DNA of 64,000 bases. Origin: an uncultured Alphaproteobacteria bacterium. GTDB taxonomy: Bacteria; Pseudomonadota; Alphaproteobacteria; VGEJ01. Where the stretch lies: the NCBI GenBank assembly GCA_913041535.1, contig CAJWJK010000001.1, positions 1 through 64,000 of the forward strand, written 5' to 3'. Below are positions 11,767-33,937 of this stretch, piece after piece (positions within the stretch are counted from its first letter, which is position 1; each line of letters opens with the position of its first letter). The notes below the pieces were generated by a model, which was given only the letters and a program-made list of their open reading frames with translations, made no database searches and was not told where the DNA came from. A program made the translations under genes and the position numbers.

Positions 11767-11824
11767 ATTTCAGCCTAGCCAAAGAGTGGGTTCGGGTTTT
11801 CACTAGATTCTTTCCTTCGAAAGG

Positions 11825-11846: not shown

Positions 11847-11870
11847 TGAACTGATGCCAGATACCACAGT

Positions 11871-15893: not shown

Positions 15894-16375
15894 TGGTCAA
15901 AACTCATGTAAATATGACAGTTAATGGTGAAGCAGTTGAGTTTCTTTGTGAAACAAAAGCTACTTTGCTTGACGTGTTAAGGGATGAGCTTGATTTAACG
16001 GGTAGCAAAGAGGGTTGTTCCTCAGGGGATTGTGGTGCCTGTAGCGTCATACTTGATGACCGATTGGTTTGTGCATGCTTAGTTTTAGGTGCTGAAGCTG
16101 ACGGTGGTAACGTCGAGACTATTGAGGGCATGGCCGATGCTGATCAACTGCATCCTTTACAACAGAAATTTCTAGAGGAAGCTGCTTTGCAGTGCGGGAT
16201 TTGTACACCTGGCTTCTTAGTTGCTGCAAAAGCGCTTCTCGAACGTAACTCGAATCCTACCGAGACAGAGGTGCGCTACTGGTTGGCCGGTAATCTTTGT
16301 AGGTGCACGGGGTATGACAAAATTGTCCGTGCGGTTATGGATACTGCGGAAGAGATGAAGGGAGTTTCAAAATGA
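15893..16375 (+). CDS. molybdenum hydroxylase 2Fe-2S subunit (CoxS type)
   Basis: 160 residues. The plant-type 2Fe-2S cluster is in GCSSGDCGACSVILD (cysteines about 42, 47, 50 and 60/62). The second cluster has CGICTPGF and CRCTGY (cysteines about 101, 104, 136, 138). It transfers electrons from the molybdenum site to FAD. It overlaps the FAD subunit gene by 1 nt and the large subunit gene by 4 nt (ATGA). Confidence 0.97.
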   Translation: MVKTHVNMTVNGEAVEFLCETKATLLDVLRDELDLTGSKEGCSSGDCGACSVILDDRLVCACLVLGAEADGGNVETIEGMADADQLHPLQQKFLEEAALQCGICTPGFLVAAKALLERNSNPTETEVRYWLAGNLCRCTGYDKIVRAVMDTAEEMKGVSK

Positions 16376-18639
16376 CCACGAATGGAAATGGACTTAGGTG
16401 GGTTGGCAAGCGTCCCGTTCGACCTGATGGAGTTGACAAGGTTACTGGACGAGCACAGTTTGGTGCGGACTTTACGTTGCCGGGTATGATTGTTGGTAAG
16501 GTGCTTAGAAGTCCTCATGCCCATGCTAATATTCGCTCCATTAAAACAGAGAAGGCTCAGGCGCTTCCAGGCGTAAAGGCTGTGATCACTGCGGCAGACT
16601 TTCCTGAATTGCCGTCAGAGATCGAACAGGCGGGCGAGGTGGTGCTTAACTTTAGGGATATGTCTCGTAATGTAATGGCACGCCAAAAAGCTTTGTATGA
16701 CGGTCATGCAGTGGCTGCGGTTGCTGCTACGTCGATAGAGATTGCTGAGCGGGCGCTTGATCTGATTGAAGTCGATTATGAGGTTTTACCACATGTAATC
16801 GACGTGGTTGAGGCAATGGAAGCCGACGCGCCGTTATTGCACGATGATCTATATACAATGGGAGTTGAGCCCACTCCTGATAAGCCATCGAATGTTGCCA
16901 AGAGAGTGGAATTTTCTATAGGTGATTTGAACGCTGGGTTTGAAATGGCAGAGGTGGTCGTAGAGCGTGAGTTTACGACTAAACCTGTTCATCAGGGCTA
17001 CATTGAACCTCATGCGGCTGTGGCTTCTGCATCCGAAGATGGTTTGTGTCATATTTGGTGCACAACACAGGGCCAGTTTATGGTTCGGTATTACGTTTCC
17101 AGGTTACTTGGTCTCGAGGTGTCCAAATTGCGCGTCACTCCATCAGAGATTGGTGGGGGGTTTGGAGGAAAAACGGTTGTTTATCTAGAGCCTGTAGCGT
17201 TGGCGTTATCTATGAAATGTCATCGGCCCGTAAAGATGGTTATGAGTCGAGAGGAAGTGTTTAGGGCTAGTGGTCCAACTTCGGGAGCCCATGTTTGGGT
17301 TAAGATGGGCGCTACTAAAGACGGGCGGATTACTGCTGGTGAGGCAGTGCTCAAGTATCAGGCGGGAGCTGTGCCCGGAGCACCAATCGGACCGGGCTGC
17401 ATGTGTGCATTTGCTCCCTACGATCTTGATAACGTCAAGGTGGTGGGTTTTGATGTTGTAACCAATCGACCTAAAGTTGCGGCATATCGGGCTCCAGGTG
17501 CTCCAATTTCCGAATTTGGTGTGGAGTCGGTAGTGGATGAGTTGGCCAAAAAACTTGGAATGGATGCTATTGCTTTCCGCGAAAAGAATGCTGCGCGTGA
17601 AGGGACGCACGCGGCATATGGGCCCACGTTTGGGGAAATTGGATATACAGAGACTCTCCGAGTTGCTAAAGAACATCCACACTATCAAGCGCCATTAGGC
17701 CCTAATCAGGGACGTGGTGTCGCCTCGGGTTTCTGGTTTAACATTGGCGGCGCATCGACTGCTGCTTTGAACGTTAATGAGGATGGGACTACAACATTAA
17801 TCTCTGGATGCCCTGATATTGGCGGGTCGCGTGCATCTCTGAGCATGATGGCCGCTGAGGTGCTGGGCATTGATGTTGAGCAGGTGCGCCCAACTATCGC
17901 AGATACTGGCTCTATCGGTTATAGCTTTCTGACAGGGGGCAGTCGTGTAACTTTTGCTACAGGAATGGCGGTTATCGAGGCGGCTAATGATGTGGTGCGT
18001 CAGCTGAGGGAGCGCGCTGCAAAAATTTGGGAAATCGATGTGGAAGCGGTGGTATGGGAAAATGGCGAGGCCAAACCGTCAGGAAGCAATGCGGGAGATT
18101 TTGAGCCTCTGTCACTCTCCTCAATTGCTGCAACAGCCGGTAAAACGGGTGGACCAATTACCGGTCATGTTTCTCTGAATGCACAGGGTGCTGGTCCGGC
18201 TTTTGGGACTCACATCTGCGATGTTGAGGTGGATCGCGAGACTGGACGTGTAACGGTCCTTCGATATACAGCAATTCAGGATGCTGGAAAGGCAATCCAT
18301 CCATCGTATGTAGAAGGACAGATTCAGGGCGGTGCTGTGCAAGGCATAGGTTGGGCGTTGAATGAGGAATACATTTATGATGAGGATGGGCGGTTGGAAA
18401 ACCCTGGATTCCTCGACTATCGCATTCCGGTCGCGTCGGATGTACCTATGATTGATGCAGTAATTGTTGAAGTGCCCAATCCTAAGCACCCTTATGGAGT
18501 GCGAGGAGTTGGTGAGGTTCCTATATGCCCACCAATGTCAGCGGTCGCAAATGCGGTTGCAAATGCTACAGGTTTGCGAATGGCTGATTTACCGATATCG
18601 CCACCTAAATTGTTGGCAGCTATTACGAATGGTGGATAA
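16372..18639 (+). CDS. molybdenum hydroxylase large subunit (xanthine dehydrogenase family)
   Basis: A 755-residue molybdopterin-binding subunit. It has GGGFGGKTVVYLEPVALALS, AAYRAPGAPISEFGVESVVDELA (not the AYXCSFR loop of form I CO dehydrogenase), and a C-terminal GVRGVGEVPI with the conserved active-site glutamate. It hydroxylates an aromatic or heterocyclic carbon using water as oxygen source. The substrate cannot be read from sequence. It is followed 2 nt later by the MoaD-like gene and by a second large-subunit gene at 19076. Confidence 0.95.
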   Translation: MTTNGNGLRWVGKRPVRPDGVDKVTGRAQFGADFTLPGMIVGKVLRSPHAHANIRSIKTEKAQALPGVKAVITAADFPELPSEIEQAGEVVLNFRDMSRNVMARQKALYDGHAVAAVAATSIEIAERALDLIEVDYEVLPHVIDVVEAMEADAPLLHDDLYTMGVEPTPDKPSNVAKRVEFSIGDLNAGFEMAEVVVEREFTTKPVHQGYIEPHAAVASASEDGLCHIWCTTQGQFMVRYYVSRLLGLEVSKLRVTPSEIGGGFGGKTVVYLEPVALALSMKCHRPVKMVMSREEVFRASGPTSGAHVWVKMGATKDGRITAGEAVLKYQAGAVPGAPIGPGCMCAFAPYDLDNVKVVGFDVVTNRPKVAAYRAPGAPISEFGVESVVDELAKKLGMDAIAFREKNAAREGTHAAYGPTFGEIGYTETLRVAKEHPHYQAPLGPNQGRGVASGFWFNIGGASTAALNVNEDGTTTLISGCPDIGGSRASLSMMAAEVLGIDVEQVRPTIADTGSIGYSFLTGGSRVTFATGMAVIEAANDVVRQLRERAAKIWEIDVEAVVWENGEAKPSGSNAGDFEPLSLSSIAATAGKTGGPITGHVSLNAQGAGPAFGTHICDVEVDRETGRVTVLRYTAIQDAGKAIHPSYVEGQIQGGAVQGIGWALNEEYIYDEDGRLENPGFLDYRIPVASDVPMIDAVIVEVPNPKHPYGVRGVGEVPICPPMSAVANAVANATGLRMADLPISPPKLLAAITNGG

Positions 18640-18890: not shown

Positions 18891-19075
18891 GTTGGTTTTA
18901 ATTGTAATCCGTACTGTCTCGATGGAAAGGTGAAAGTCGAATTTCTAGCTGTCGTAGGTTGGAGCCGTATCAGAATTTGTGTGTCAGTCGCGGAAAGCTT
19001 GGGAGATTTGTTGTTGTCAGTGGGCACGTCTATTGAGTCGGGTAATATCATTATCGCTGAAATTGGAGCTGTGAG

Positions 19076-21403
19076 ATAGCCAAGTTCGGAATTGGCCAGT
19101 CGGTCCTGCGCAATGAGGATGAGAGATTTCTCACGGGTGCTGGCAAATACATTGATGACTTAACATTACAAGGTCAAACATACGCGTATGTTCTTCGCTC
19201 ACCACATTCTCACGCAGTTATCAGAAGCATAGAGACGGAGGTAGCAGCTGCTTCGCCTGGCGTTCTAGCAGTACTAACAGGCGGTATGTATCGTGCTGCT
19301 GGGCACAGGCCAATACCATGTCCTGGGAAGGTAAATAACGTGGATGGAAGCCCAAGTGTGGATCCGCCTCGGTGGCCGCTAGCAATTGATCGGGTTCGAC
19401 ATGTGGGTGATGGTGTAGCTGTTATTGTTGCTGAATCTATGGAGGAAGCTCTTGATGCTGCGGAGCGTGTAAGCATTGTCTATGAACCAGTACCTGCAGT
19501 GGTGGGGACAGGGTCAGCACTTGATAGTGTTGAACGATTAGTTTGGGAGGAAGCTCCTCAAAACCTTGCTTTTCATTGGGAACTTGGGAATGAGGCTCTG
19601 ACTAATGATGCTTTTTTGACCGCGCCTCACATAATACGCTTGGATGTTATTAACAATCGTTTAGTAGTAAATCCGATAGAGACACGGGGTGCAGCGGCCA
19701 CATATGTTGATGGGCGCTACTGTCTCCATGTTGCCAGTCAAGGCGTTCACCTTATACGTGATATGCTGTGCGATGATGTGATAAACGTTCCTCGAGACAA
19801 TCTTCGGGTAATCACTCTGGATGTGGGAGGCGGATTTGGTGTCAAATACTTCGTTTATCCGGAGTACGCGCTACTGCTTTGGGCTACAAGAATTGTGGGC
19901 AGACCCGTAAAGTGGATTGCAAGTCGATCAGAAAGTTTCCTGAGTGATGTTCAGGCGCGTGATCACGTGACTCATTTGGAATTGGCGTTAGACGAAGAGG
20001 CGCGTTTTGTTGGGCTGCGGGCGTCGAGCATTGCTAATATGGGAGCCTATCTCTCCAATTGGGCACCGCATATCCCTACGGAAGCCAGTGCTGCAATATA
20101 CTCCAGTGTGTATTCTATACCTACAATTCACGTTAAGGTTCGTGGGGTTTTTACCAATACAGTTCCCGTTGACGCCTATCGCGGTGCAGGTCAGCCGGAA
20201 GCAATATACGCACTCGAGAGAATAATTGGTAAGGCTGCTCGGGAGCTAGGATTAACCGATACGGAGATTAGACGTCGAAATTATATTTCCTCTGAAAGGA
20301 TGCCCTATCGGACAGCTCTTACGCACACGTATGATTCAGGCGATTTTATGTCTAATATGGAAAAGGCATTACAGATTGCAGAAGTTGGCACTTTTGAAAG
20401 CCGTCGTGCTGAGGCACATGCTGAGAATTATCTGCTTGGTTTAGGCATTGCACCTTATATCGAAGCCACCGACGGGGTTCCTGATGGTGAAGTAGACATC
20501 ACAGTCTCTGGAGACGGCAAGGTAACTATCATAAGTGGTTGGCAGTCCACTGGCCAAGGACATGAAACGGCTTTCTCGCAGATGGTAGCGCAACAGCTCG
20601 GCGTGGCAATTGGGGCAATAGAGGTTATTCAGGGAGATTCGCAAAAAGTTTTTAGCGGTCGTGGCACTGGTGGTTCTAGATCTCTGGTGTTCGCAACTTC
20701 GGCGCTAGTTGCGGCTTCAGCCTCAATTATTGAGAAAGGGACGGTAATTGCCTCAGATTTGTTAGAGGTTGCTGAAAATGATGTGAGTTATTCCGAGGGG
20801 TCATTTCAAGTCGTTGGGACAGACGTCAAGCTTGAGTTGTTTGAGGTTGCTTTGGAGGCTGAGCGTCGGAGTGGAGGGAAGTTGGCTGCAAATGGTGTTT
20901 TTGTTCCTGATCAGTCGGGTGCCTACCCGGATGCTGGCACTTCGTTTCCCAACGGGTGCCATGTTTGTGAATTGTCAATTGACATGGAGACGGGACAGCC
21001 AAAGATAATACGTTACGTTGCAGTTAATGATTTTGGCATTCTCGTTAATCCAATGTTGGTTTTAGGGCAGGTTCACGGTGGTGTTGCTCAGGGCATTGGG
21101 CAGGCATTTTGTGAAAATACGGTTTACGATGATACTGGGCAACTGCTTACGGGGTCATTTATGGATTATTGTATACCGCGTGCTGATGATCTTCCGTCGG
21201 TCTCTGTATCATTTAATGAGCTGCCTTCTCCAGCGCATCCTCTTGGTATTAAGGGGTGCGGGGAATCTGGCGCTATAGTTGGTCCTGTAGCGGTTATGAA
21301 TGCAGCTCTGGATGCGCTTTCACTAGTCGGCGTTGATGACATTGAAATGCCTTTATCTTCCGAGCGAATATGGCGGGCTATTCAATCTGCTAAGGCATTA
21401 TGA
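19076..21403 (+). CDS. second molybdenum hydroxylase large subunit, abnormal start codon
   Basis: Frame open from 19061 to 21403 encodes a full-length xanthine-dehydrogenase-type large subunit of about 775 residues: KFGIGQSVLRNEDERFLTGA, LRSPHSHA, GGGFGVKYFVYPEYALLLW, VDAYRGAGQPEAIYALERI, and GIKGCGESGAIVGP (active-site glutamate). The expected MAKFGIGQ start reads ATA GCC AAG: the initiator is ATA, with GGAG 7 nt upstream, and no ATG, GTG or TTG precedes it before the in-frame TGA at 19058. The first internal ATG (19286) would lose about 70 conserved residues. This is either a non-standard start, a point mutation or a sequence error. It has no own FAD or Fe-S subunit and may share those at 15033-16375. 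Confidence 0.88.
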   Translation: MAKFGIGQSVLRNEDERFLTGAGKYIDDLTLQGQTYAYVLRSPHSHAVIRSIETEVAAASPGVLAVLTGGMYRAAGHRPIPCPGKVNNVDGSPSVDPPRWPLAIDRVRHVGDGVAVIVAESMEEALDAAERVSIVYEPVPAVVGTGSALDSVERLVWEEAPQNLAFHWELGNEALTNDAFLTAPHIIRLDVINNRLVVNPIETRGAAATYVDGRYCLHVASQGVHLIRDMLCDDVINVPRDNLRVITLDVGGGFGVKYFVYPEYALLLWATRIVGRPVKWIASRSESFLSDVQARDHVTHLELALDEEARFVGLRASSIANMGAYLSNWAPHIPTEASAAIYSSVYSIPTIHVKVRGVFTNTVPVDAYRGAGQPEAIYALERIIGKAARELGLTDTEIRRRNYISSERMPYRTALTHTYDSGDFMSNMEKALQIAEVGTFESRRAEAHAENYLLGLGIAPYIEATDGVPDGEVDITVSGDGKVTIISGWQSTGQGHETAFSQMVAQQLGVAIGAIEVIQGDSQKVFSGRGTGGSRSLVFATSALVAASASIIEKGTVIASDLLEVAENDVSYSEGSFQVVGTDVKLELFEVALEAERRSGGKLAANGVFVPDQSGAYPDAGTSFPNGCHVCELSIDMETGQPKIIRYVAVNDFGILVNPMLVLGQVHGGVAQGIGQAFCENTVYDDTGQLLTGSFMDYCIPRADDLPSVSVSFNELPSPAHPLGIKGCGESGAIVGPVAVMNAALDALSLVGVDDIEMPLSSERIWRAIQSAKAL

Positions 21404-21416
21404 TGAGCATACAAGT

Positions 21417-21860
21417 ATGGCCAATATGAGTGTTCGCGGAATCGATCATATAGTGCTGAGGGTTCGGGACATTGCCAAATCGATTGCATGGTATGAGTGT
21501 GTCCTTGGTGCCAAGCAGGAGCGATACGTTAGTGATATTAATCTACATCAGTTACGTTTGGGTGCTGCTCTCATTGATCTTATGCCAGTATGTAGTGACC
21601 AGACAGAAAACGATAAAGTCGTAGTGACGAAGCCTACGACCAACATGGACCATTTCTGTGTGTTACTTGATTGTTTTGACGAAAAGAGTGTCCGTGATCA
21701 TTTGAAACGCTGCGGTGTTCAGTCTGGAAGTGTTGAAAGGCGGTATGGGGCACTCGGTTACGGTCCATCAATGTACATCACCGACCCTGACGGCAATATT
21801 GTTGAACTTAAGGGTCCGCCAGAACTAGAGCCGAACAGGCCCGCTGGGAACTTTACGTAA
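21417..21860 (+). CDS. VOC-superfamily protein (glyoxalase/extradiol dioxygenase-like)
   Basis: 147 residues forming two VOC half-repeats: GIDHIVLRVRDIAKSIAWYE in the first, MDHFCVLLDCF in the second, and a terminal metal-ligand region TDPDGNIVELKGP. The histidines and glutamate that bind metal in this superfamily are present. ATG at 21417 is 14 nt after the large-subunit stop, suggesting cotranscription. Members can be dioxygenases, isomerases or lyases; which one cannot be told. Confidence 0.88.
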   Translation: MANMSVRGIDHIVLRVRDIAKSIAWYECVLGAKQERYVSDINLHQLRLGAALIDLMPVCSDQTENDKVVVTKPTTNMDHFCVLLDCFDEKSVRDHLKRCGVQSGSVERRYGALGYGPSMYITDPDGNIVELKGPPELEPNRPAGNFT

Positions 21861-21926
21861 CGATACCGAAACAACGGTTTTCTCTAGAATCGTAGACACT
21901 AATTTGGGCTAGGAAGGGTGCAATCG

Positions 21927-22286
21927 ATGTCTACCTTTGAACTTATAGATGTTGCAAGTGTAAGGGGGTACCACGCTCACGTGTACTACGACGACGACTC
22001 CTATGCGACGGCAGCTCTTATTAGAGAGCAACTTTCGGAGCGCTTCTCGGTAAAACTGGGGCGCTGGCGTGATAGTCCAGTTGGGCCTCATCCGTGTGCA
22101 ATGTATCAAGTTGCTTTTAGACCTGACCTATTCGCCGCCATCGTGCCGTGGCTCATGCTCAATCGGACAGGATTAACAGTTCTGGTTCATCCCGAAACTG
22201 GTAACGATTTTCTAGATCATTCCGAGCGTTCGTTGTGGATTGGCACAGAGCTTAAACTTAACCTTGACATGTTTGCAGGGAATTGA
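21927..22286 (+). CDS. DOPA 4,5-dioxygenase family protein
   Basis: 119 residues: GYHAHVYYDDDSYATAALIREQL, RDSPVGPHPCAMYQVAF, PWLMLNRTGLTVLVHPETG and a final DHSERSLWIGTELKLNLD. The three conserved histidine regions (HAH, GPHP, LVHP) match the small DOPA 4,5-dioxygenase family, extradiol ring-cleaving enzymes acting on catechols. AGGAAGG precedes the ATG at 21927. In this context it may act on a hydroxylated ring, but many bacterial members are uncharacterised. Confidence 0.9.
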   Translation: MSTFELIDVASVRGYHAHVYYDDDSYATAALIREQLSERFSVKLGRWRDSPVGPHPCAMYQVAFRPDLFAAIVPWLMLNRTGLTVLVHPETGNDFLDHSERSLWIGTELKLNLDMFAGN

Positions 22287-22320: not shown

Positions 22321-22845
22321 CTAATCCTTCGGTGGCCCTCCGAAGGTGCCAATCTTAGTCTGTAACCCTAGTTTTTTAAACGCGGCTACAATCAAGTCAA
22401 TATCTTCTTGACTTGATTGTGCCCCACTGACACCTATGCCTCCAATGACTGTTTTATTAACGATGATGGGATAGCCTCCTCCAAGAAAAGTGTAATCTTC
22501 AAGTGCTGCTACTCCCATCAGCCCTTGTTCGTCACCTTTAAGCAGGTTGTATACGCTATGTGTGGGGGATTGAAACCCGGCGGCACTGCGGGCTTTGGTT
22601 ATGGCTAAGCCAACACTACGAACATGCGAGTCATCTGCCCTTCGGAATGCCTTTAACACGCCGCTTTCGTCGCAAACAGCAATTACAGTGTTACGTCCAA
22701 GCTTAGCTGATTCGGTCCAGGTGGCTTGTATCAGTTCTTCTGCAAATGCTATTGAAATTGTTTTCTTTGGTACCGTACGCTCACGGGCCGTAACTGCGCG
22801 TGTAGCAGTCTTCTTATTCTTTCTAGTAGTGACACCCCTTGCCAT
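22321..22845 (-). CDS. GlcG/HbpS-like (DUF336) protein
   Basis: A 174-residue protein with the GlcG/HbpS heme-degrading/PduO-C-like domain from residue about 30: AEELIQATWTESAKLG, VCDESGVLKAFRRADDS, TKARSAAGFQSPT, GLMGVAALEDYTFLGGGYPI, GGIGVSGAQSSQEDIDLI. The N-terminal 27 residues are lysine- and arginine-rich without a signal peptide, unlike most members. It is on the minus strand, convergent with the preceding gene. GlcG-like proteins occur beside catabolic oxidases; the function here is unknown. Confidence 0.85.
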   Translation of the reverse strand: MARGVTTRKNKKTATRAVTARERTVPKKTISIAFAEELIQATWTESAKLGRNTVIAVCDESGVLKAFRRADDSHVRSVGLAITKARSAAGFQSPTHSVYNLLKGDEQGLMGVAALEDYTFLGGGYPIIVNKTVIGGIGVSGAQSSQEDIDLIVAAFKKLGLQTKIGTFGGPPKD

Positions 22846-22986: not shown

Positions 22987-23301
22987 ATGAGGAATGATCA
23001 AGACGAGCGGCCCTTGGCACGCCCAAGTGTACAGGTTGATAATGAACGCACTCGCGTTACAGAGTGGCGATTTCCACCAGGGGCTGCTACAGGGTGGCAT
23101 CGCCACGAGTATGACTACGTCGTGGTGCCGATGACGTCAGGTACTTTAATGATGTGTAATTCTAACGGCGAGTCAGAGGCACTTTTAGAAAGTGGAAAAG
23201 CCTATAATAGACAGGCTGGCGTGGAACATGACGTCATAAATCCAAATGATTTCGAATTTGTCTTCGTTGAAGTGGAGATCAAAGCATATGGCCTTGACTA
23301 G
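22987..23301 (+). CDS. cupin-domain protein
   Basis: A 104-residue single cupin barrel: RVTEWRFPPGAATGWHRHEYDYVVVPMTSG with the HxH...E metal-binding motif 1, and QAGVEHDVINPNDFEFVFVEVE forming motif 2 with histidine. It may be a metal-dependent dioxygenase, isomerase or binding protein. It is divergent from the GlcG-like gene and precedes the amidohydrolase array. Confidence 0.85.
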   Translation: MRNDQDERPLARPSVQVDNERTRVTEWRFPPGAATGWHRHEYDYVVVPMTSGTLMMCNSNGESEALLESGKAYNRQAGVEHDVINPNDFEFVFVEVEIKAYGLD

Positions 23302-23399: not shown

Positions 23400-24698
23400 A
23401 TGGCTAACAAGCTTTTCACAAATCTTGTGATATTTGATGGCAGCGGAAAGAAACCGTATGTCGGTGAGGTTTTGGTTCAGGGCAATCGAATCAAGACTGT
23501 CTCTCGTGGCAGCAATAAGATTAATAGAGAGGGAGCGGATGTAGTTGATGCCGACGGTGCGACGTTGATGCCGGGTATGATCAACTGTCACAGCCACATT
23601 GGCTATCCTGACTCAGAGGGCCTAACCGATATCGGAGATTTGCCCCCTGAGGAGCATATCCTTAATGCGCGAGCAAATGCTGGAACTGTTTTAGATCATG
23701 GATTCACATCAGTGGTGAGCGCAGCGTGTGCAAAGCCAAGACTCGATATAGTTCTTCGTAATGAGATCAATGCTGGACTTTCCCCTGGACCTAGGATGCG
23801 GGCAGCGAGTCCGCAGTTAATTGGTACCGGTGGTAATGGGGATGCTAGACAGCTGCACATGCACCATCAGTCCTTTGAGATGATATGTGATGGCCCTGTA
23901 GAGATGCGACGTACTGTACGCGAATTGATTCGCGAGGGCGTTGATCTGATAAAAATATCTAATTCTGGTGATACTCTTGGAATGTGGCCGAACGGTCAGA
24001 GTGGCTACGAAACAATGGCCGAAGATGAAGTGGCTGCAGCGGCTGAGGTTGCCCATTCGAGAGGTAAATGGCTCGCAGCACATGCTCGGGCAACTGGGTC
24101 TATAGAACTCTGTTTAAAATATGGCATTCAAATAATTCATCATGCAACTTTTGCTACGACAAAGCTGCTTGATAAGCTTGAGGAAAAGAAATCTAAACAT
24201 TGGGTCTGCCCAGCTGTTGGGATACTTTATGTATGTGCTTATGAGGCAGATGATTGGGAGATGCTTGGTTGCGATACAGCAATGATCAGTAATGTAGAAG
24301 CGGAACTCCAGACTGCGCACATAACGATGCAAAAGATGCTCAAGCGGGGAATTCGAATTCTACCTTTTGGTGATTATGGATTTGCATTTAATCCACATGG
24401 TGCCGATGCTCGTGAACTAGAGCATATGGTTAATCTGCTTGGTTTTAAGCCTATTGAAACGCTTGTTGCGGCGACCAAGTGGGGTGGTGAGGCTTTTGCT
24501 ATGGGAGGTTCAGTGGAAGTTGGTGAAATTAAAGCTGGATATCTTGCTGACATGCTGTTGGTAGATGGTGATCCGACAAAGGATCTCACACTTCTTCAGG
24601 ATCGGGATAATATTCTTATGGTCATGAAAGATGGCCAGTATCACAGGTCGTTAACGCGACGGCGTGCTTCTGGGCGTCGTGCCGCGGCCGCGGAGTAG
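23400..24698 (+). CDS. metal-dependent amidohydrolase, array copy 1
   Basis: A 432-residue amidohydrolase-superfamily enzyme (imidazolonepropionase/prolidase-like branch). Metal-site residues seen are H64 and H66 (NCHSHIGY), K185 (LIKIS, candidate carboxylated lysine), H228 (AAHARA), H247/H248 (IIHHAT) and D325 (PFGDYG). Its beta-sandwich ends are LFTNLVIFDGSGKKPYVGEVL and YLADMLLVDGDPTKDLTLL. It hydrolyses an amide or cyclic amide of unknown identity. The last 15 residues are arginine-rich (TRRRASGRRAAAAE). First of four tandem paralogs. Confidence 0.92.
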   Translation: MANKLFTNLVIFDGSGKKPYVGEVLVQGNRIKTVSRGSNKINREGADVVDADGATLMPGMINCHSHIGYPDSEGLTDIGDLPPEEHILNARANAGTVLDHGFTSVVSAACAKPRLDIVLRNEINAGLSPGPRMRAASPQLIGTGGNGDARQLHMHHQSFEMICDGPVEMRRTVRELIREGVDLIKISNSGDTLGMWPNGQSGYETMAEDEVAAAAEVAHSRGKWLAAHARATGSIELCLKYGIQIIHHATFATTKLLDKLEEKKSKHWVCPAVGILYVCAYEADDWEMLGCDTAMISNVEAELQTAHITMQKMLKRGIRILPFGDYGFAFNPHGADARELEHMVNLLGFKPIETLVAATKWGGEAFAMGGSVEVGEIKAGYLADMLLVDGDPTKDLTLLQDRDNILMVMKDGQYHRSLTRRRASGRRAAAAE

Positions 24699-24761
24699 TA
24701 TGCACTTGGTGACTGGGAGGCAGATGGGCTGTCTTGTTTACGGAACATGGGAGGCAATCTA

Positions 24762-26051
24762 ATGGCAAATAAGTTGTTCACGAACGTTTCTATTTTTAAC
24801 GGTACCGGAAAGAAGCCGTTTGCTGGCGAGGTTCTCGTCCAGGGGAATCGTATAAAAAAGGTTGTTCGGGGTAATAATAAAATTGAACGGCAAGGCAATG
24901 ACGTAATTGACGGTTATGGGTCATTCCTTATGCCTGGTCTGGTGAATTGCCATAGTCACACCACGTATCTTGATACGTCCACCCTGGCGGAAGTTGGAGA
25001 TATTCCGCCGGAAGAGGCAACGTTGCAGGCCGCGCACAATGCCCGAGTTCAACTTGATAACGGTATGACTGCGGTGGTTAGCGCTGCGGCAGCGAAGCCG
25101 AGAATGGACATTGTTCTTCGTAATGAAATTAATTCTGGGAGAATTCCTGGTCCTCGAATGAAGGCATGTACACCTCAATTGATTTCGACCGGTGGTCCGT
25201 GGGATGCGCGTCAGATGCATATGCACCATGAATCTTTTGAAATCACATGTGATGGGCCGATAGAGTTTCGTCGCGCCACCCGTGAGATGATTCGTGAGGG
25301 TGTTGATATCGTTAAGTTAGCGATCTCTGGCGACAATAATGCTCATCCCCATGCCGCTGAAGATATGACAACTTGGTCCGAGGATGAGATAGCAGCAGTG
25401 ATGGAGGTTGCTCAGTCGCGCGGAGTATGGGCTTGTTCCCATGCGCGGGGCGATGATTCGATTCGTTTGTCGATTAAGTATGGAATTCAGATAATTCATC
25501 ACGCTACTTTTCCGAGTAAAAAGACTCTTGATTCCTTGGAGAAGCGAAAACATAAGCACTATATTTGTCCTGCATTCGGAGCCATTTATACGGCGTTATA
25601 TGAAGCGTCAGATTGGGGTATGACTCAAGAATTTATCGAGACTGCAGGCTTTGCCCGTGAACTTGAGGTTGGTTGCAAAACCATGAAGGAAATGCACAAG
25701 AGGGGCATTAAAGTTATGCCCTATGGCGATTATGGCGTGGCGTGGAATCCGCATGGCACGGATAATCGCGATCTTGAGCATTTTGTGAACCTGGTCGGCT
25801 TTTCCCCGGCGGAAACTCTGATGATGGCGACTATGTTTGGTGGTGAGTGTTTTGCCTTTGGAGGAACTCCTGAAATAGGTCAGATTAAAGAAGGATACCT
25901 TGCTGATCTTCTTATGATAGATGGCGATCCTCTTGCTGATATCACTATCATGCAGGACAAGGATAATTTCTTAATGATTATGAAAGATGGTGAGTATCAT
26001 AAAGCACCACCCCGTCGCCGGCGTGGACAACAGCGTGTAGCGGCGGAATAG
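24762..26051 (+). CDS. metal-dependent amidohydrolase, array copy 2
   Basis: 429 residues, closely similar to copy 1: NCHSHTTYLD, VDIVKLAISGDN, ACSHARGDDS, IQIIHHATFPSKK, MPYGDYGVAWNPHGT and YLADLLMIDGDPLADITIM. All putative metal ligands are kept. ATG at 24762 is preferred because GGGAGG lies 7 nt upstream; an ATG at 24747 is also in frame. The C-terminus is again basic (PPRRRRGQQRVAAE). The intergenic gap to copy 1 is 63 nt, so the array is likely one operon. Confidence 0.92.
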   Translation: MANKLFTNVSIFNGTGKKPFAGEVLVQGNRIKKVVRGNNKIERQGNDVIDGYGSFLMPGLVNCHSHTTYLDTSTLAEVGDIPPEEATLQAAHNARVQLDNGMTAVVSAAAAKPRMDIVLRNEINSGRIPGPRMKACTPQLISTGGPWDARQMHMHHESFEITCDGPIEFRRATREMIREGVDIVKLAISGDNNAHPHAAEDMTTWSEDEIAAVMEVAQSRGVWACSHARGDDSIRLSIKYGIQIIHHATFPSKKTLDSLEKRKHKHYICPAFGAIYTALYEASDWGMTQEFIETAGFARELEVGCKTMKEMHKRGIKVMPYGDYGVAWNPHGTDNRDLEHFVNLVGFSPAETLMMATMFGGECFAFGGTPEIGQIKEGYLADLLMIDGDPLADITIMQDKDNFLMIMKDGEYHKAPPRRRRGQQRVAAE

Positions 26052-26105
26052 GCTTGTTTGTGAAAAAATTATACTATGTAAACTTAGCGTAGTAGTGGAC
26101 CTTCT

Positions 26106-27404
26106 ATGATGAAAAACCAGCTTTATACAAATGTGTCAGTATTCGATGGAGTTAGTAAAGGCACATATCTAGGCGAGGTGCTTATCCAAGGCAATCGAAT
26201 AAAAGCGGTAGTAAAGGGGAAGAATCAGATATCCAAAGAGGGTGCCGAGGTTATCGATGGTCAAGGCTCCACTTTGATGCCTGGCCTAGTAAATTGCCAC
26301 GGTCATATAAGCTACCCAAATCTTGGAGGTTCACTTAGTGATATAGGAGATATTCCTCCTGAGGAACATATGCTCCTGACAGTCCACAATGCTAAGACCA
26401 TGATTGATTATGGGTTCACCGCTGTGGTCAGTGCAGCGGCAGCTAAGCCAAGGCTTGACATAGTGTTAAGAAATGAGATTGAGGCGGGTCGTGTTCCTGG
26501 TCCAAGATTGCGTGCGTGCACGCCCCAGTTCAATACCACGGCGGGGCCATGGGATGCTCGTCAATTACACATGGATCACGCTACATTCGACGAAATAGCA
26601 GACGGGCCGATAGAATTTAGACGTAAGGTCCGAATGTACATTCGTGAAGGTGTGGATATGGTCAAGCTCTCCATTTCTGGAGATAATTTTTCTCGGGAGT
26701 TTGCGGGGGAGCAAGACACCACAATAAGCGAAGATGAAATTGCTGCTGCCACTGAGGTTGCACATTCGCGGGGCGTGAGGCTTTGTTCGCATTCTCGAAG
26801 TGATCAGTCAGTTTTACTCAGCATGAAATATGGTATTGAGATTATTCATCATGCTACCCATATTTCAGACCGAACCGTTGAGAAGTTGGGTAGGAAAAGC
26901 AGCAAGTTTTTTGTTTGCCCGGCTCTAGGAATAACGTACGCAACTGCATACGAGGCTCAAGACTGGGGTGTAGATGCAGACTATGTTGAGACTCGGTATC
27001 TGGTTCGTGAGTTTGAGTTGGGGTGCAAAATAGCTCGGAAATTAGTGGCTGCTGGTGTCAAGGTTTTGCCATTCGGTGACTACGGTGTAGCATGGAACCC
27101 GCTTGGCACTGATTCGCGAGATCTTGAGCACTTTGTTAACCAGGTTGGGTTTAGTCCAGCACAGACTTTAACAATGGCGACTAAATGGGGCGGAGAGTGC
27201 TATGCTGGTGTTGGCAACACCGTTGAGATTGGCGAAGTGAAGGAGGATTACCTTGCAGACCTTATTATGATTGACGGTGATCCACTTTCGGATATTACTT
27301 TGTTTCAAGACCAGGATAACTTTTTAATGATTATGAAGAATGGTGAGTATCATAAAAAACCGCGCAATCGCCGCATATCGCGGAAACAGAGGCAGGTGCG
27401 GTAA
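26106..27404 (+). CDS. metal-dependent amidohydrolase, array copy 3
   Basis: About 432 residues, the most divergent of the array: NCHGHISYPN (HGH instead of HSH), DMVKLSISGDN, LCSHSRSDQS, IEIIHHATHISD, LPFGDYGVAWNPLGTDSRD and YLADLIMIDGDPLSDITLF. Metal ligands are retained. The start is ATG 26106 or 26109. The C-terminal tail is lysine- and arginine-rich without the AAE ending (NRRISRKQRQVR). Divergence suggests a different substrate. Confidence 0.92.
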   Translation: MMKNQLYTNVSVFDGVSKGTYLGEVLIQGNRIKAVVKGKNQISKEGAEVIDGQGSTLMPGLVNCHGHISYPNLGGSLSDIGDIPPEEHMLLTVHNAKTMIDYGFTAVVSAAAAKPRLDIVLRNEIEAGRVPGPRLRACTPQFNTTAGPWDARQLHMDHATFDEIADGPIEFRRKVRMYIREGVDMVKLSISGDNFSREFAGEQDTTISEDEIAAATEVAHSRGVRLCSHSRSDQSVLLSMKYGIEIIHHATHISDRTVEKLGRKSSKFFVCPALGITYATAYEAQDWGVDADYVETRYLVREFELGCKIARKLVAAGVKVLPFGDYGVAWNPLGTDSRDLEHFVNQVGFSPAQTLTMATKWGGECYAGVGNTVEIGEVKEDYLADLIMIDGDPLSDITLFQDQDNFLMIMKNGEYHKKPRNRRISRKQRQVR

Positions 27405-27483
27405 AATATTTCGGGTTTGGGATTCTAATTCCCAACCGGTAGTTGCGGGTCATTGAAATCCGCATGAGGAAGGAGAACTACTA

Positions 27484-28776
27484 ATGTCAAATCAGCTTTT
27501 TACGAACGTTTCGATTTTTGATGGCAGCGGGAAAAAGCCGTTTGCTGGCGAGGTTTTGGTGCAAGGGAATCGCATCAAGAAGGTTGCGCGTGGTAAGACG
27601 AAGATTCGCCGTAATGGCGCAAAGGTAATTGATTGTGGCGGTGCCACGTTATTGCCAGGGTTCGTTGACTGTCATGCACATCTGGCATATTGCGATACCG
27701 CTACTTTGTTTGCTTTGGGCGATATTCCGCCAGAAGAGAATCAGCTTCTCGCAATGCACAACGCTAAGCTTTATATGGATCATGGTATAACTGCTGCTGT
27801 CAGTGCTGCTTCGAGCAAGCCTCGCACTGATATCGTTCTTCGGAATGAAATTAATTCAGGCCGTATTCCCGGTCCGCGACTGCGTGCGAGCACGCCGCAA
27901 TTTGTGACTACTGGTGGTCCATGGGACGCAAATCAAATGCACATGGAGCATGGGTCCTTTGAGATTGTAGCTGACGGTCCTGTGGAATTCCGCAAAAAGG
28001 TGCGGGAAATGATCCGTGAAGGGGTCGATATCGTAAAACTTGCTATTTCAGGAGACGCTTTTATTGAGCATACACCTGAGCACGCACACTCCTATAGTGA
28101 AGACGAGATTGCTGCTGCATGTGAGGTTGCGCATTCGCGCGGAAAACGGCTCGCTGCGCATTGCCGAGCTGATGCGTCGATACGTGCTGCCATTAAGCAT
28201 GGGATAACCTTTATTCATCATGCGGAACATGCGACAACTAGAACGCTTGACTTGCTTGAGAAAAACAAAAGTAAGCATTACGTTTGCCCGGCGATTGGTA
28301 TCATCTACGCTACTCTATATGAGGGGAGCGATTGGGGTGTTGATCACGAATACGCTGTAGCGCATCGGTTTGATAAGACACTTCAAATTGCGGCGAAGAC
28401 AACAAAAGAGATGTTCAAAAGAGGAATCAAGGTTATGCCATATGGTGATTATGGATTTGCCTGGAATCCTCAGGGGACAAATAATCGGGACCTTGAGCAT
28501 TTCGTTAATCTTATTGGTTTTACTCCAGCACAAACGCTGATGATGGCAACTAAGTGGGGGGGTGAAGCTTGGGCAGGCAGCGATCCTGTTGAAATGGGAG
28601 AGGTTAAGGAAGGCTATCTTGCAGACTTGATTGTGATCGATGGTGATCCAATTAAGGATATAACGCTGTTTCAGGATGCCGATAACTTCCTTATGGTTAT
28701 GAAAAACGGTGAGTATTATAAGGCGCCACAGCGGCGTCGTTCGGGGTCTCGCCGTCAGGTTGTTGCTGCAGAATAA
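27484..28776 (+). CDS. metal-dependent amidohydrolase, array copy 4
   Basis: 430 residues: DCHAHLAYCD (HAH), DIVKLAISGDAF, LAAHCRADAS, ITFIHHAEHATTR, MPYGDYGFAWNPQGT, YLADLIVIDGDPIKDITLF. An AAGGAGA ribosome-binding site is 7-8 nt upstream of ATG 27484. The first 30 residues are nearly identical to copies 1 and 2 (KKPFAGEVLVQGNRIKKV). The tail is basic (QRRRSGSRRQVVAAE). It is the last array gene, followed by a terminator-like hairpin. Confidence 0.92.
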   Translation: MSNQLFTNVSIFDGSGKKPFAGEVLVQGNRIKKVARGKTKIRRNGAKVIDCGGATLLPGFVDCHAHLAYCDTATLFALGDIPPEENQLLAMHNAKLYMDHGITAAVSAASSKPRTDIVLRNEINSGRIPGPRLRASTPQFVTTGGPWDANQMHMEHGSFEIVADGPVEFRKKVREMIREGVDIVKLAISGDAFIEHTPEHAHSYSEDEIAAACEVAHSRGKRLAAHCRADASIRAAIKHGITFIHHAEHATTRTLDLLEKNKSKHYVCPAIGIIYATLYEGSDWGVDHEYAVAHRFDKTLQIAAKTTKEMFKRGIKVMPYGDYGFAWNPQGTNNRDLEHFVNLIGFTPAQTLMMATKWGGEAWAGSDPVEMGEVKEGYLADLIVIDGDPIKDITLFQDADNFLMVMKNGEYYKAPQRRRSGSRRQVVAAE

Positions 28777-29012: not shown

Positions 29013-29783
29013 ATGCGATCGATCGCAGGAAAAGTTGTCTGGGTCACCGGGGCAGGAACAGGGATTGGTCGTGCTGGGGCGCTATCGTTAGGTGGTTCAG
29101 GAGCAGAGCTTGCTCTGTCTGGTCGACGCGAGGAAAAACTAAACGAAACGGCGTCACAGGTGGAAAAGTTAGGAGGAAGGGCTTTAGTTGAGCCTCTGGA
29201 TGTTTCGGATGAAGCTGCGGTGGGTCAAGTAATTGAGCATATTTTAAAGCGTTTTGGTCGGATCGATATCCTTGTTCATAGTGCCGGCATAAATGTTCCT
29301 AATCGTACCTGGCGTGATTTGACGTCCGAAGCGTGGAACCGGGTTATAGATGTAGACTTGTCTGGGGCGTTCCACTGCGCGCATGGGGTGCTACCTATTA
29401 TGAGGAAACAGAGAGAAGGCCTAATCATAAACGTCGCATCGTGGGCAAGTCGTTATGTAAGCTACCTCAGCGGGCCCTGTTATACGGCTGCCAAGCACGG
29501 TATGTTAGCGTTAAGCCATAGTATAAATATTGAAGAAGGGCGTTACGGCATCAGATGTTGTGCGCTATGCCCAGGAGAGGTTGCGACTCCGTTGCTTGAG
29601 CAGCGACCAAAACCAGTCCCAAAGCAAGATACGGATCGGATGATCCAATGTGATGATATGGGGGAATTGATCTGCTTCGTTGCAAGTATGCACGAACGAG
29701 TATGTCTAAATGAAGTGCTTGTTTCTCCCACTTGGAACCGCAGTTATCAGGGCCATCCGGATACTCTGCCACCCAGGGACTAG
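29013..29783 (+). CDS. short-chain dehydrogenase/reductase
   Basis: A 256-residue classical SDR: VTGAGTGIGRAGALSL (TGxxxGIG cofactor motif), ALSGRREEKL (R suggests NADP preference, weak), LVHSAGIN (variant of NNAG), INVASWAS catalytic serine, and CYTAAKHG with Y and K of YxxxK. The substrate is unknown. GGAGAGG precedes the ATG. It starts a new transcription unit after the array terminator. Confidence 0.9.
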   Translation: MRSIAGKVVWVTGAGTGIGRAGALSLGGSGAELALSGRREEKLNETASQVEKLGGRALVEPLDVSDEAAVGQVIEHILKRFGRIDILVHSAGINVPNRTWRDLTSEAWNRVIDVDLSGAFHCAHGVLPIMRKQREGLIINVASWASRYVSYLSGPCYTAAKHGMLALSHSINIEEGRYGIRCCALCPGEVATPLLEQRPKPVPKQDTDRMIQCDDMGELICFVASMHERVCLNEVLVSPTWNRSYQGHPDTLPPRD

Positions 29784-29872
29784 AATAGAACGGTAGCATT
29801 AAGATAGAGATTTAGGCAGGGTGTCGGCGGCAGCCTAGCTTTGGATTAGTTGTGTGTGAAGGAGAGGGCTTG

Positions 29873-30799
29873 ATGACTTTGCGAGCAAATGAGCGAGTAG
29901 TTTATTTCAATGGGGAAATAATGCCCGAAAGCAAAGTTACAATATCGTTTCGTGACCGAAGTTTTCGTTATGGAGACGGTGCTTTTGATACGACTCGCAC
30001 TTTTGGACATCAAATTTTTAAGCTTAAGCCGCATATTGATAGATTCTTCAAAACCCTAAAGTACCTGGACCTTGATCCTGGCTTAAGTTCTCGACAGCTC
30101 ATGACTATAACTGAAGATGTTCTTGAGCGTAATCTTCACCTGCTTGATCAAGAGGATGATTATTGGGTGACTCAAAGGGTATCACGTGGTGTTGAAATTC
30201 CGGGCGGCGATGTGCATGAAGAAGGTGGAACTGTAGTTATCGTAGAGTGTACACCACTTCCATTTAAAGCCCGCGCGAGCTATTTTCGCGATGGTATAGA
30301 AGTTGGAGTACCATCCATCCGTCGCGCTGCACCCGATTCTATAAACCCAAGAGCAAAAACCCATAATTACCTTAATCTTCTTCTGGGCCATCAGGAGATT
30401 AGAAGATATAACCCCAAGGGTTGGGCGATTTTGCTTGATCATAACGGCAATCTTTGTGAGGGGGTAGGATCGAATCTTTTTGTCATTGAGGATGGTGTTA
30501 TTGCCACGCCACAAGACTTATTCGTCCTGTGTGGAATAAGTCGTGAAACTGTAATTGAACTTGCAAAGCAAAAAGGAATGCGCGTAGTCAAGAGGGATAT
30601 TGATTTGTACGATGCTTACAATGCTGATGAAATGTTTATTACATCAACAAGTTTTTGCATATGCCCAGTAAAGAGCATTAATGGCACAATAATTGGTAGC
30701 GGAGAGATTCCTGGGCCAATGACAACGAAACTCATTGAAGCATATAAAGAGCTAGTGGATTATGATTTTGTTGCGCAATACTTGAGATATTTGGACTGA
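29873..30799 (+). CDS. class IV aminotransferase (BCAT-like)
   Basis: A 308-residue fold-type IV PLP enzyme: VYFNGEIMPESKVTISFRDRSF, RYGDGAFDTTRTFG, the PLP-lysine region NPRAKTHNYLN, and LCEGVGSNLFVIEDGVI plus MFITSTSFCICPV. The group includes branched-chain and D-amino-acid aminotransferases and aminodeoxychorismate lyase; the substrate is unknown. ATG at 29873 follows AAGGAGAGG. A paralog of the same class is at 53999. Confidence 0.88.
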   Translation: MTLRANERVVYFNGEIMPESKVTISFRDRSFRYGDGAFDTTRTFGHQIFKLKPHIDRFFKTLKYLDLDPGLSSRQLMTITEDVLERNLHLLDQEDDYWVTQRVSRGVEIPGGDVHEEGGTVVIVECTPLPFKARASYFRDGIEVGVPSIRRAAPDSINPRAKTHNYLNLLLGHQEIRRYNPKGWAILLDHNGNLCEGVGSNLFVIEDGVIATPQDLFVLCGISRETVIELAKQKGMRVVKRDIDLYDAYNADEMFITSTSFCICPVKSINGTIIGSGEIPGPMTTKLIEAYKELVDYDFVAQYLRYLD

Positions 30800-30825
30800 G
30801 GATATTAAGAAAAGTGAGAAAAACC

Positions 30826-32133
30826 ATGGCTCTGCCCAATATTACGTTGGAAGCGGCTTTGGATGAAGCAGAGAAATCTTACATTACTTCAAACCCGGTA
30901 AGTAATACAAAATGGCGCAGTGCCTGTAAGGCTTTGCCAGGGGGGAATACCCGAAGTGTACTGTTCTTTGATCCATTTCCTGTTGTTATGGCACGCGCTG
31001 AAGGTGCGCGCCTCTGGGACTTAGATGGGCATAGGTATACAGATTTTCTGGGCGATTTTACCGCTGGACTCTACGGTCATTCCAATCCTGTTATCCAAGA
31101 TGCTGTCCGCAATGCTTTGAATGATGGAGTGTCTTTAGGTGCATCCAATATTTACGAGGAGCAGTTGGCACATGCGGTATGTGAGCGGTTCCCTTCGTTA
31201 GATTTGGTTCGCTTTACCAATTCGGGAACGGAAGCTAATTTGATGGCTGTATTAGCAGCAAGAGCAATTACCGGCCGTGACAAGGTTTTAGCGTTTGAAC
31301 GGGGCTACCACGGTGGCGTATTTGTGTTTAAGAAGGGTAATTCCCCCATCAATTTGCCAATTGACTGGGTAATGGCAAAGTATAACCAGGTAGAGGACAC
31401 ACTGGCAGTTATTGACGAGAACTCTACTGAATTAGCTGCTATTTTGGTTGAACCAATGATGGGCGCGGGGGGCTGTATTCCAGCAGATGGCGCCTTTATC
31501 GAATCTCTACGGGAACGTGCGAATAGATATGGGATCATACTTATCTTTGATGAAGTGATGACTTCCCGACTCGCCCCTGGAGGTTTGCAAGAGGTCTTTG
31601 GTGTCAATCCGGATATGACCACTTTGGGAAAATACATTGGTGGGGGCATGACGATTGGTGCATTTGGTGGGCGGCGTAGCATAATGGAAGAGTTCGATCT
31701 ACGGAAAGATGGGGCGCTATTCCACTCCGGTACGTATAACAATAACGTGCTTTCCATGGCGGCGGGAACAGCTGGCCTAACAAAGGTTTATACTCCCAGG
31801 GCTGCCAACGAACTGAATTCACGGGGGGATCATTTGCGCAAGCATCTGAACGCTCTGGCGGCTGATAGCCCTGTGCCGATGCAGGTAACAGGCCAAGGTT
31901 CAATGATGAATGTCCATTTCAGCACTACTTCTGTTATGCGACCCGAAGATGTTGATGATTGTGACGAAAATGCACTAAAACTATTTCATCTTGATATGTT
32001 GGCACGGGGAAAATACTTACCGCGCAGGGGTTTTATGAGCCTCTCGCTGCCGATTACAGACGAAGATATTGAGGAATTTGTTGCTGATGTTGAGGATTTT
32101 TTGGAAACTCGCGCATCTGTTCTCGGAATCTGA
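30826..32133 (+). CDS. class III aminotransferase (glutamate-1-semialdehyde aminomutase-like)
   Basis: About 435 residues. It has PGGNTRSVLFFDPFP near the N-terminus (typical of HemL-like members), RFTNSGTEANLMAVLAARA, FERGYHGG, IIFDEVMTSRLAPGG-like text (ILIFDEVMT) and the PLP lysine in TTLGKYIGGG. HemL converts glutamate-1-semialdehyde to ALA, but many HemL-like enzymes act on other omega-amino acids, and the context here is catabolic. ATG 30826 or GTG 30814 may be the start. It lies 27 nt after the class IV gene. Confidence 0.9.
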   Translation: MALPNITLEAALDEAEKSYITSNPVSNTKWRSACKALPGGNTRSVLFFDPFPVVMARAEGARLWDLDGHRYTDFLGDFTAGLYGHSNPVIQDAVRNALNDGVSLGASNIYEEQLAHAVCERFPSLDLVRFTNSGTEANLMAVLAARAITGRDKVLAFERGYHGGVFVFKKGNSPINLPIDWVMAKYNQVEDTLAVIDENSTELAAILVEPMMGAGGCIPADGAFIESLRERANRYGIILIFDEVMTSRLAPGGLQEVFGVNPDMTTLGKYIGGGMTIGAFGGRRSIMEEFDLRKDGALFHSGTYNNNVLSMAAGTAGLTKVYTPRAANELNSRGDHLRKHLNALAADSPVPMQVTGQGSMMNVHFSTTSVMRPEDVDDCDENALKLFHLDMLARGKYLPRRGFMSLSLPITDEDIEEFVADVEDFLETRASVLGI

Positions 32134-32136
32134 TGA

Positions 32137-32883
32137 ATGGCACCAGTTGTTTTGATCACAGGCGCTAGTCGGGGTATCGGGGCAGCTACCGCGGTTAAAG
32201 CTGCTTACGCTGGTTACGATGTCTGCATCAACTATTTAAATAGTGCTGATTCTGCAACTGCTGTGGCATCTAAAATTGAGGCACTGGGACGCCGTGCCCT
32301 TACGGTCCAAGCTGATACTGCAAAAGAGGACGATATTATTCGATTATTTGAAACAGTGGATCGTGATTTAGGTCGTCTTGACGCTTTGGTCAATAATGCT
32401 GGCATTACTGGAACAGGGTGTTTAATTGAAGACCTTTCGGGGTCCGATCTGAAGCGTGTTTTGATGACCAACCTTGCGGGTCCATTTATGTGTGCGCGTG
32501 AGGCTGTGAGTCGTATGGCGTTTAAGCACGGTGGTTCAGGGGGTGCGATTGTAAACATGTCCTCTGCTGCTGCAAAACTGGGTAGCCCGTTTGAATTTAT
32601 CCATTATGCGGCTTCTAAAGGTGGAATTGAAAGTCTAACAGTAGGCTTGGCGAAAGAGGTAGCGGCAGAGGGAATTAGGGTAAATGCCGTTCGCCCTGGC
32701 ATGATCAATACTGAAATACACGCGAGTGCTGGAATGCCTGATCGCTGTGAACGTATTGCTCCTACTGTGCCTATGAAGCGGGTCGGCACCCCAGAGGAGG
32801 TAGCTGATACAGTATTGTTCTTGCTGTCTGAGAAATCGTCATATGTTACGGGAACGATAGTTGATGTTTCAGGGGGTCGTTAA
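32137..32883 (+). CDS. short-chain dehydrogenase/reductase
   Basis: A 248-residue classical SDR starting 3 nt after the aminotransferase stop: LITGASRGIGAATAVKA, VNNAGITG, IVNMSSAAAKLG, HYAASKGGIESLT (YxxxK) and NAVRPGMI. Probably an NAD(P)-dependent reductase of unknown substrate, cotranscribed with the two upstream PLP genes. Confidence 0.92.
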   Translation: MAPVVLITGASRGIGAATAVKAAYAGYDVCINYLNSADSATAVASKIEALGRRALTVQADTAKEDDIIRLFETVDRDLGRLDALVNNAGITGTGCLIEDLSGSDLKRVLMTNLAGPFMCAREAVSRMAFKHGGSGGAIVNMSSAAAKLGSPFEFIHYAASKGGIESLTVGLAKEVAAEGIRVNAVRPGMINTEIHASAGMPDRCERIAPTVPMKRVGTPEEVADTVLFLLSEKSSYVTGTIVDVSGGR

Positions 32884-32956: not shown

Positions 32957-33937
32957 ATGAGAAACGTAGTTGTTACCTTTGATGCTCGACCTGAATCTCG
33001 TGAGGCGATTTTAGATGTGTTGAGCAGCGTGGCCAATGTTCATTATTTAACCGATCTTGATTCGACGGATCGATCCGATGTGCTGAGTCATGCAGATGCC
33101 CTCATTAGCCTTAACCCAGCTGGCGATCTAGCTGAGGGGGAGCTTGATCTAATATCTGGAGCTAAGCTTGTGCAGCTAATCGCTGCGGGCGTGGATTTTA
33201 TTCCCTTTCAGCAGTTGCCCGATAACTTGCTGGTTGCGTCGAATGCTGGGGGATGGTCAGAGCCAATAGCGGAGCATGCAGTTGCCATGGCGCTATCTGC
33301 AGCTAAGCGTCTATCTATACGACAAGCTGCTTTGGCAAAGGGTGATTTCAACCAAAATGGCCTTAATCTTACTCTAAAAGGTGGAGTGTTTGGTGTTGTT
33401 GGTTATGGGGGAATTGGCCGTGCTACTGGTCGTCTAATGCGTGGCCTTGGGATGAAAATTCATGCGGTAAATCGTTCAGGTTGTACAGAGGATGAGGTAG
33501 ACTTCGTTGGAAACTCCAGTTCCCTTCATTCGGTTTTGGAGAGAGCGGACGTTGTGCTTGTTTCAACGCCATTGACTAAAAGCACAGAAGGTTTGATTGG
33601 TGAATCCGAGTTAAGTGCAATGAAAGAAACTGCTATCCTGATCAATGTAGCGCGAGGCGAGATCATTGATGAAGGAGCATTGTACAAGCATCTCACTTTG
33701 AACCCGAACTTTACGGCATGTATAGATGCTTGGTGGGTCGAGCCGGTTAGGCATGGGGAGTTTCGTATGGACTATCCATTTCTTGAACTTCCAAATGTTA
33801 TTGGGTCTCCCCATAATTCATTTTCAATTCCGGGTGCTTTCTTTAATGCGGTGGGTCAGGCAGCAGAAAACGTTAAAAGGCTGTTGGACGGTGGTACGGT
33901 TGAAAATATTGTGCCTACTGGCGACATGTTTCGTTAG
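32957..33937 (+). CDS. D-isomer specific 2-hydroxyacid dehydrogenase
   Basis: 326 residues: GVVGYGGIGRATGRLMRGLG (NAD Rossmann motif), INVARGEIIDEGAL (catalytic arginine), DAWWVEPVR (glutamate) and GSPHNSFS (histidine), the catalytic triad of the family. It interconverts a 2-oxoacid and D-2-hydroxyacid with NAD(H). GAAGG lies before the ATG. A divergently coded FAD/Fe-S D-2-hydroxyacid oxidase lies at 34273-37143. Confidence 0.92.
   Translation: MRNVVVTFDARPESREAILDVLSSVANVHYLTDLDSTDRSDVLSHADALISLNPAGDLAEGELDLISGAKLVQLIAAGVDFIPFQQLPDNLLVASNAGGWSEPIAEHAVAMALSAAKRLSIRQAALAKGDFNQNGLNLTLKGGVFGVVGYGGIGRATGRLMRGLGMKIHAVNRSGCTEDEVDFVGNSSSLHSVLERADVVLVSTPLTKSTEGLIGESELSAMKETAILINVARGEIIDEGALYKHLTLNPNFTACIDAWWVEPVRHGEFRMDYPFLELPNVIGSPHNSFSIPGAFFNAVGQAAENVKRLLDGGTVENIVPTGDMFR

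Follow-up and report, generated by a model that had tools for sequence, protein, structure and literature searches.

A tandem array of four diverged amidohydrolase paralogs in an uncultured alphaproteobacterium, and tandem gene sets in its subfamily

The 64,000-nucleotide stretch of an uncultured Alphaproteobacteria bacterium analysed here (the window; lineage VGEJ01, assembly GCA_913041535.1, contig CAJWJK010000001.1, positions 1 to 64,000) carries four consecutive genes of the amidohydrolase superfamily, termed paralogs A to D. The array is real, old, functional-looking and unusual; the kind of enzyme is itself known, and the main addition is that genes of an uncharacterised subfamily recur in fixed tandem sets. 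The encoded enzymes are best read as putative amide hydrolases of a catabolic cluster that would have been retained as co-functioning paralogs.

The four-gene array and the age of its duplications

A first-pass annotation of the window had described four head-to-tail genes of about 430 codons with short gaps; indeed, the confirmed open reading frames comprise 430-434 codons, are all intact and co-oriented, are separated by 48, 54 and 79 nucleotides and, compared in register, recur with a periodicity of ~1350-1370 nucleotides. The genes are listed below together with their orthologs in the corresponding array of the sister genome (G001), which represents another genus and is the one other genome of the order examined (pairs of support values are from a tree of 44 sequences):

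23400..24698, plus strand: amidohydrolase paralog A, 432 aa, HSH, NG replacing PW of TGGPW (open reading frame and alignment); ortholog, first gene of the sister array (100/100)
24747..26051, plus strand: amidohydrolase paralog B, 434 aa, HSH, probable true start 24762; best match, second gene of the sister array, with weak support (74/93)
26106..27404, plus strand: amidohydrolase paralog C, 432 aa, HGH; ortholog, fourth gene of the sister array (97/86)
27484..28776, plus strand: amidohydrolase paralog D, 430 aa, HAH; ortholog, third gene of the sister array (98/92)

The later start of paralog B (MANKLFTN...) is the more likely one, because it is preceded by a GGGAGG Shine-Dalgarno motif and agrees with the starts of the other copies. 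Promoter and terminator scans at the array gave no signal above that of shuffled sequences; operon status is therefore based on spacing and orientation alone.

Pairwise identity among A-D amounts to 54-65% at the protein and 57-63% at the DNA level and drops to 34-41% at third codon positions, which excludes near-identical allelic or assembly copies, the first of two circumstances named in the first-pass annotation as speaking against its interpretation. The second, a single gene in relatives, is contradicted by the sister genome, an independent assembly in which the same four-gene array (L105 10038-15434) stands behind the same upstream block as in the window. In addition, a clade holding only the four window genes was rejected (approximately unbiased (AU) test, p = 6.5e-6). 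Given copies this strongly diverged, their presence in an independent assembly and the rejected clade, it is hardly conceivable that the array is an assembly artefact or the product of a recent local amplification, and nothing was found that would favour either. Since ortholog pairs span the genera and the window-only clade is rejected, the tree places the duplications, or most of them at least, before the separation of the two genera; the gene order changed afterwards (A-B-C-D in the window versus A-B-D-C in the sister genome). The repeated tandem duplication proposed at first reading is thus borne out by the divergence and the sister array, with the duplications being old, and in the tree that had been suggested as a check the window copies pair with their sister-genus orthologs (B weakly) instead of with each other.

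That the copies are redundant and were kept for dosage is quite improbable. The same metal ligands and a similar length in all copies, with about one third of the positions invariant across the arrays of both genomes, would agree with it; however, dosage would lead one to expect similar or homogenised copies, which is at odds with the protein identities given above and with a sliding comparison among A-D for gene conversion, in which no paralog stretch stood out, and the separate lineages have been maintained since before the genus split.

Family assignment, metal site and pocket signature

All four paralogs match PF01979 across the whole domain (B with 81.2 bits versus a gathering score of 25), and a six-frame search with this profile recovered all four loci at 74.5-77.4 bits. 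The best NCBIfam model was NF051886 (Xaa-Pro dipeptidase), for which A-D scored 182-213 bits, below the curated cut-off of 500 bits and thus outside this family; the hydantoinase, dihydropyrimidinase and allantoinase models gave 18-27 bits over ~50 N-terminal residues, likewise far below their cut-offs (358-393 bits). The nearest solved relatives are cog1228 arginine carboxypeptidases, dipeptidases, prolidases and ochratoxinase/ADH3-type amidohydrolases, and the lactam and hydantoin substrates considered in the first-pass annotation found no specific support. By sequence, the array enzymes belong to the cog1228 / Xaa-Pro dipeptidase amidohydrolases, within a branch that is as yet uncharacterised; no solved or named subfamily member was found in this analysis, the annotation reading only "amidohydrolase family protein".

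Cc2672 (PDB 3mtw), Sgx9359b (3be7/3dug) and the Xaa-Pro/hydrophobic dipeptidases (2qs8, 3mkv) align with the array proteins over their full length and share the fold class and the same six metal ligands, although the cog1228 enzymes are distant from the array (~114-124 bits by phmmer). Ochratoxinase/ADH3-type enzymes (4c5y, 8ihq, 9l2t) belong to the same superfamily branch and have the same metal site; we know of no tandem arrangement of their genes. The ligands H64, H66, K185, H226, H246 and D322 (D numbering) are present in A-D and across the subfamily, and the alignment confirms the HxH, K, H, H and D read from the sequence at first pass. The HxH triplets of A, B, C and D had also been read correctly (HSH, HSH, HGH and HAH, respectively); as a marker of specificity, however, their middle residue was dropped, because it is not conserved between array orthologs (S/A in B, A/G in D). 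The AlphaFold model of D was poor (mean predicted local distance difference test score, pLDDT, 59.5).

The array and its relatives share the signature TGG[P/L/N]xxD...SGD...HxR...GDYG, together with [H/Y/F]H, whereas characterised members of the cog1228 carboxypeptidase/ochratoxinase branch have TGGH, HAHG and EH (TGGH and HAHG in 3mtw, 3be7, 9l2t and 9kov, TGGH also in 2qs8). A-D therefore lack the TGGH and HAHG histidines, which bind carboxylate and carbonyl in that branch, and fall into the HxR/GDYG subfamily as defined in this analysis, in which R228, D148, D182, S189 and G321-D322 are invariant. Arg228 is the partner of the position equivalent to the metal ligand His287 of ochratoxinase and occurs in all array and Burkholderiales pair sequences (see below) and in 39 of 40 others; it takes the place of the carboxylate-binding His289, two residues past His287. 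In docking of ochratoxinase, the substrate carboxylate was placed near His191, His287 and His289 (PMC11342369). An invariant arginine at the His289 position suggests that the substrate of the array enzymes still bears a carboxylate but is positioned differently.

A pocket signature unlike that of all characterised cog1228 hydrolases aligned, and a neighbourhood dominated by redox and C-C cleavage enzymes, could also mean that amidohydrolase-fold proteins were recruited to another reaction (decarboxylase, isomerase or dinuclear monooxygenase as in PtmU3/AibH). This is improbable, however, as the full hydrolase metal set including the bridging lysine is kept in the array, the pairs and the relatives.

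Tandem copies elsewhere in the subfamily

In one Burkholderiales family, 31 of 301 genomes contained a relative, and 18 of these had two adjacent, co-oriented copies (this family is placed in Burkholderiales on the basis of the Variovorax genes, which fall inside it in the tree). An example is the Variovorax paradoxus VAI-C plasmid CP063167 (L155), whose pair carries the subfamily signature of the array; it differs from the array in having two copies instead of four, in its separate duplication and in its other neighbours. Members 1 and 2 always occurred together and in constant order in the 18 genomes, and one more genome has both at contig ends; after addition of single-copy genomes to the tree, neither pair clade included a gene standing alone, and what looked like two exceptions are these contig ends of one genome. 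The two members share 60% identity, compared with averages of 83% and 80% within their clades, and keep all metal ligands, apart from one sequence in which position 66 is R. Since the pair forms a clade of its own, apart from that of the array (SH-aLRT 100 and 97), tandem fixation happened, to judge from the tree, at least twice and independently, and the repeated side-by-side placement is probably of functional importance.

The pair stands in the operon FAH - alpha/beta hydrolase - AH1 - AH2 - LivH - LivM - binding protein - LivG - fusion of an ATP-binding cassette (ABC) protein with UPF0261 - PEP_hydrolase, where AH1 and AH2 are the amidohydrolases. Azospirillum and others have this gene order with a single amidohydrolase and a regulator of the GntR type, and Cupriavidus CH34 pMOL30 and Pantoea have the core GntR - FAH - alpha/beta hydrolase - amidohydrolase. 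Relatives within the subfamily stand in operons of catabolic type that also encode FAH, an alpha/beta hydrolase and ABC uptake of the Liv type. As a separate observation, the ABC ATPase fused to UPF0261 (Tm-1-like) and the PEP_hydrolase-like protein were constant in the paired operon (L155 16052-19166 and Burkholderiales pair loci).

The strict pairing and fixed order of members 1 and 2 might indicate that the paralogs assemble together into a single mixed oligomer, i.e. a homo-oligomer turned hetero by duplication. Such a complex would contain two different subunits in the case of the Burkholderiales pair and as many as four in that of the array, and some of them might be structural. For several of the solved relatives, the structure entry contains 8 chains. 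A heteromeric precedent from the superfamily is AibH1H2, which comes from a different family and is a Mn/Fe hydroxylase, unlike the hydrolases proposed for the array. This heterodimer consists of two amidohydrolase-superfamily paralogs that work together (PMC12141560), and ochratoxinase forms a D4-symmetric homo-octamer (PMC11342369). However, every copy has all metal ligands, leaving no obvious structural subunit, selection on a two-step operon could also give strict pairing, and the gene order of the array changed between the genera; the mixed oligomer is the main alternative to divided specificity, but a less probable one. Its most far-reaching form, in which A-D would build a multi-specific hydrolase of the hetero-octamer type from four different active subunits, as the extreme of the two-subunit trend in Burkholderiales, is rather improbable.

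Beyond these loci, two further relatives lie in the window's genome, an intact one (C1:302475-303764, 51%) and a frameshifted copy (G000:C2:63851-65105, L110 9851-11105) that falls in the array clade; the latter has one frameshift at about codon 253, with the frames otherwise open, and a Liv-type binding protein and permease ~7 kb downstream. The sister genome has three dispersed relatives besides its array. A scan of genome contigs with a single protein yielded just relatives at ~30% identity or less along their full length. In the class survey, a sample because scoring was confined to each genome's four best candidates, 40 of 385 genomes had a relative at E <= 1e-60 and no tandem array was found outside the two genera. 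One order had up to four copies, mostly dispersed, with one divergent neighbouring pair. Six of the 399 genomes of the phylum sample had a match, and no further array was among them. The statement at first reading that a four-copy array of this family was not recognised therefore stands as far as the genomes searched are concerned, which held no other, but has to be qualified by the parallel of the fixed tandem pair of the same subfamily in Burkholderiales. A literature search on tandem amidohydrolases and on amidohydrolases combined with molybdenum hydroxylase or UPF0261 found nothing relevant. A DUF1636 protein repeatedly adjoined single subfamily amidohydrolases in unrelated genomes (L109 10887-11468, L140 7301-7753, L156 8498-8893).

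Genomic surroundings and proposed role of the four copies

The genes flanking the array in the window are as follows:

15033..18639, plus strand: molybdenum hydroxylase medium, small and large subunit 1 (open reading frames and sequences; large-subunit domains)
19061..21403, plus strand: molybdenum hydroxylase large subunit 2 (MoCoBD domains; three tandem homologs at 47-57% in the sister genome)
21333..21860, plus strand: VOC/glyoxalase-fold protein (PF00903; 51% in the sister genome)
21918..22286, plus strand: DOPA 4,5-dioxygenase-like protein (PF08883; 55% in the sister genome)
22321..22845, minus strand: HbpS/GlcG-like protein (PF03928; 73% in the sister genome)
22987..23301, plus strand: cupin (Cupin_2; same place in the sister genome, 56%)
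29013..32883, plus strand, downstream of the array: SDR, class IV aminotransferase, class III aminotransferase and SDR (profile matches)
32957..33937, plus strand: D-2-hydroxyacid dehydrogenase (profile match; 44% homolog in L105)

The molybdenum hydroxylase, which the first-pass annotation had placed beside the array, does lie in the same region, but its large subunit ends at 21403 and the VOC, DOPA-dioxygenase-like, HbpS and cupin genes intervene. The upstream block of the sister genome consists of three tandem molybdenum hydroxylase large subunits followed by VOC, DOPA-dioxygenase-like, HbpS and cupin genes; the D-2-hydroxyacid dehydrogenase, downstream of the array in the window, is located inside this upstream block in G001.

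Some further features of the region may be recorded. The conserved N-terminal sequence of large subunit 2 is in frame from 19061, with no ATG, GTG or TTG before 19286, which points to either an unusual start codon or damage at the 5' end; in the sister genome, the third tandem large subunit (L105 4841-6821) is split over two frames near 5940-5997, possibly by a frameshift. Between the two large subunits of the window (18642-18890), a small GTG-start open reading frame ending in ...PRIGGG has a MoaD/ThiS-type ubiquitin-like look. Directly upstream of the molybdenum hydroxylase genes, MobA-like, FdhD and MoaA genes are found (10260-12860), and the region therefore resembles a molybdenum-enzyme locus. 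Farther along the window, at 40698-51070, a catabolic-looking group encodes a thiamine pyrophosphate (TPP) enzyme, HIBADH, a GcvT-like protein, a DRL oxidoreductase, an HMG-CoA-lyase-like protein, CaiB and an acyl-CoA dehydrogenase.

In the proposed pathway, the order of which is tentative, the molybdenum hydroxylase(s) and the ring-cleavage-type proteins would modify the substrate first, the amidohydrolases would then cut its amide bond, and the dehydrogenases and aminotransferases would use the resulting pieces. Each array enzyme would carry a carboxylated lysine, bind two divalent metals and hydrolyse the amide bond of an organic carboxylate held by the invariant arginine. The four copies were most likely kept through divided specificity, an explanation with roughly even prospects of being correct, and would then cover different substrates, stereoisomers or steps; specialisation of the copies is plausible. 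Several points weigh against this interpretation. Direct evidence for distinct specificities is thin, since the positions that agree within each of the four ortholog pairs yet differ between the copies number only 19. The sister contig ends after the array, so that the comparison of neighbours covers the upstream side only, and a molybdenum hydroxylase was looked for and not found next to other subfamily members, the coupling being confined to these two genomes. Finally, that His191 of ochratoxinase corresponds to the TGGH histidine is something we infer ourselves.

As putative amide hydrolases, the array enzymes would add a catabolic activity to a poorly sampled bacterial order. They belong to a widespread subfamily whose genes appear to have been fixed as tandem sets at least two times independently, and in which it becomes directly testable whether oligomeric enzymes persist after duplication because the copies divide the substrates among themselves or because they come to form mixed oligomers.

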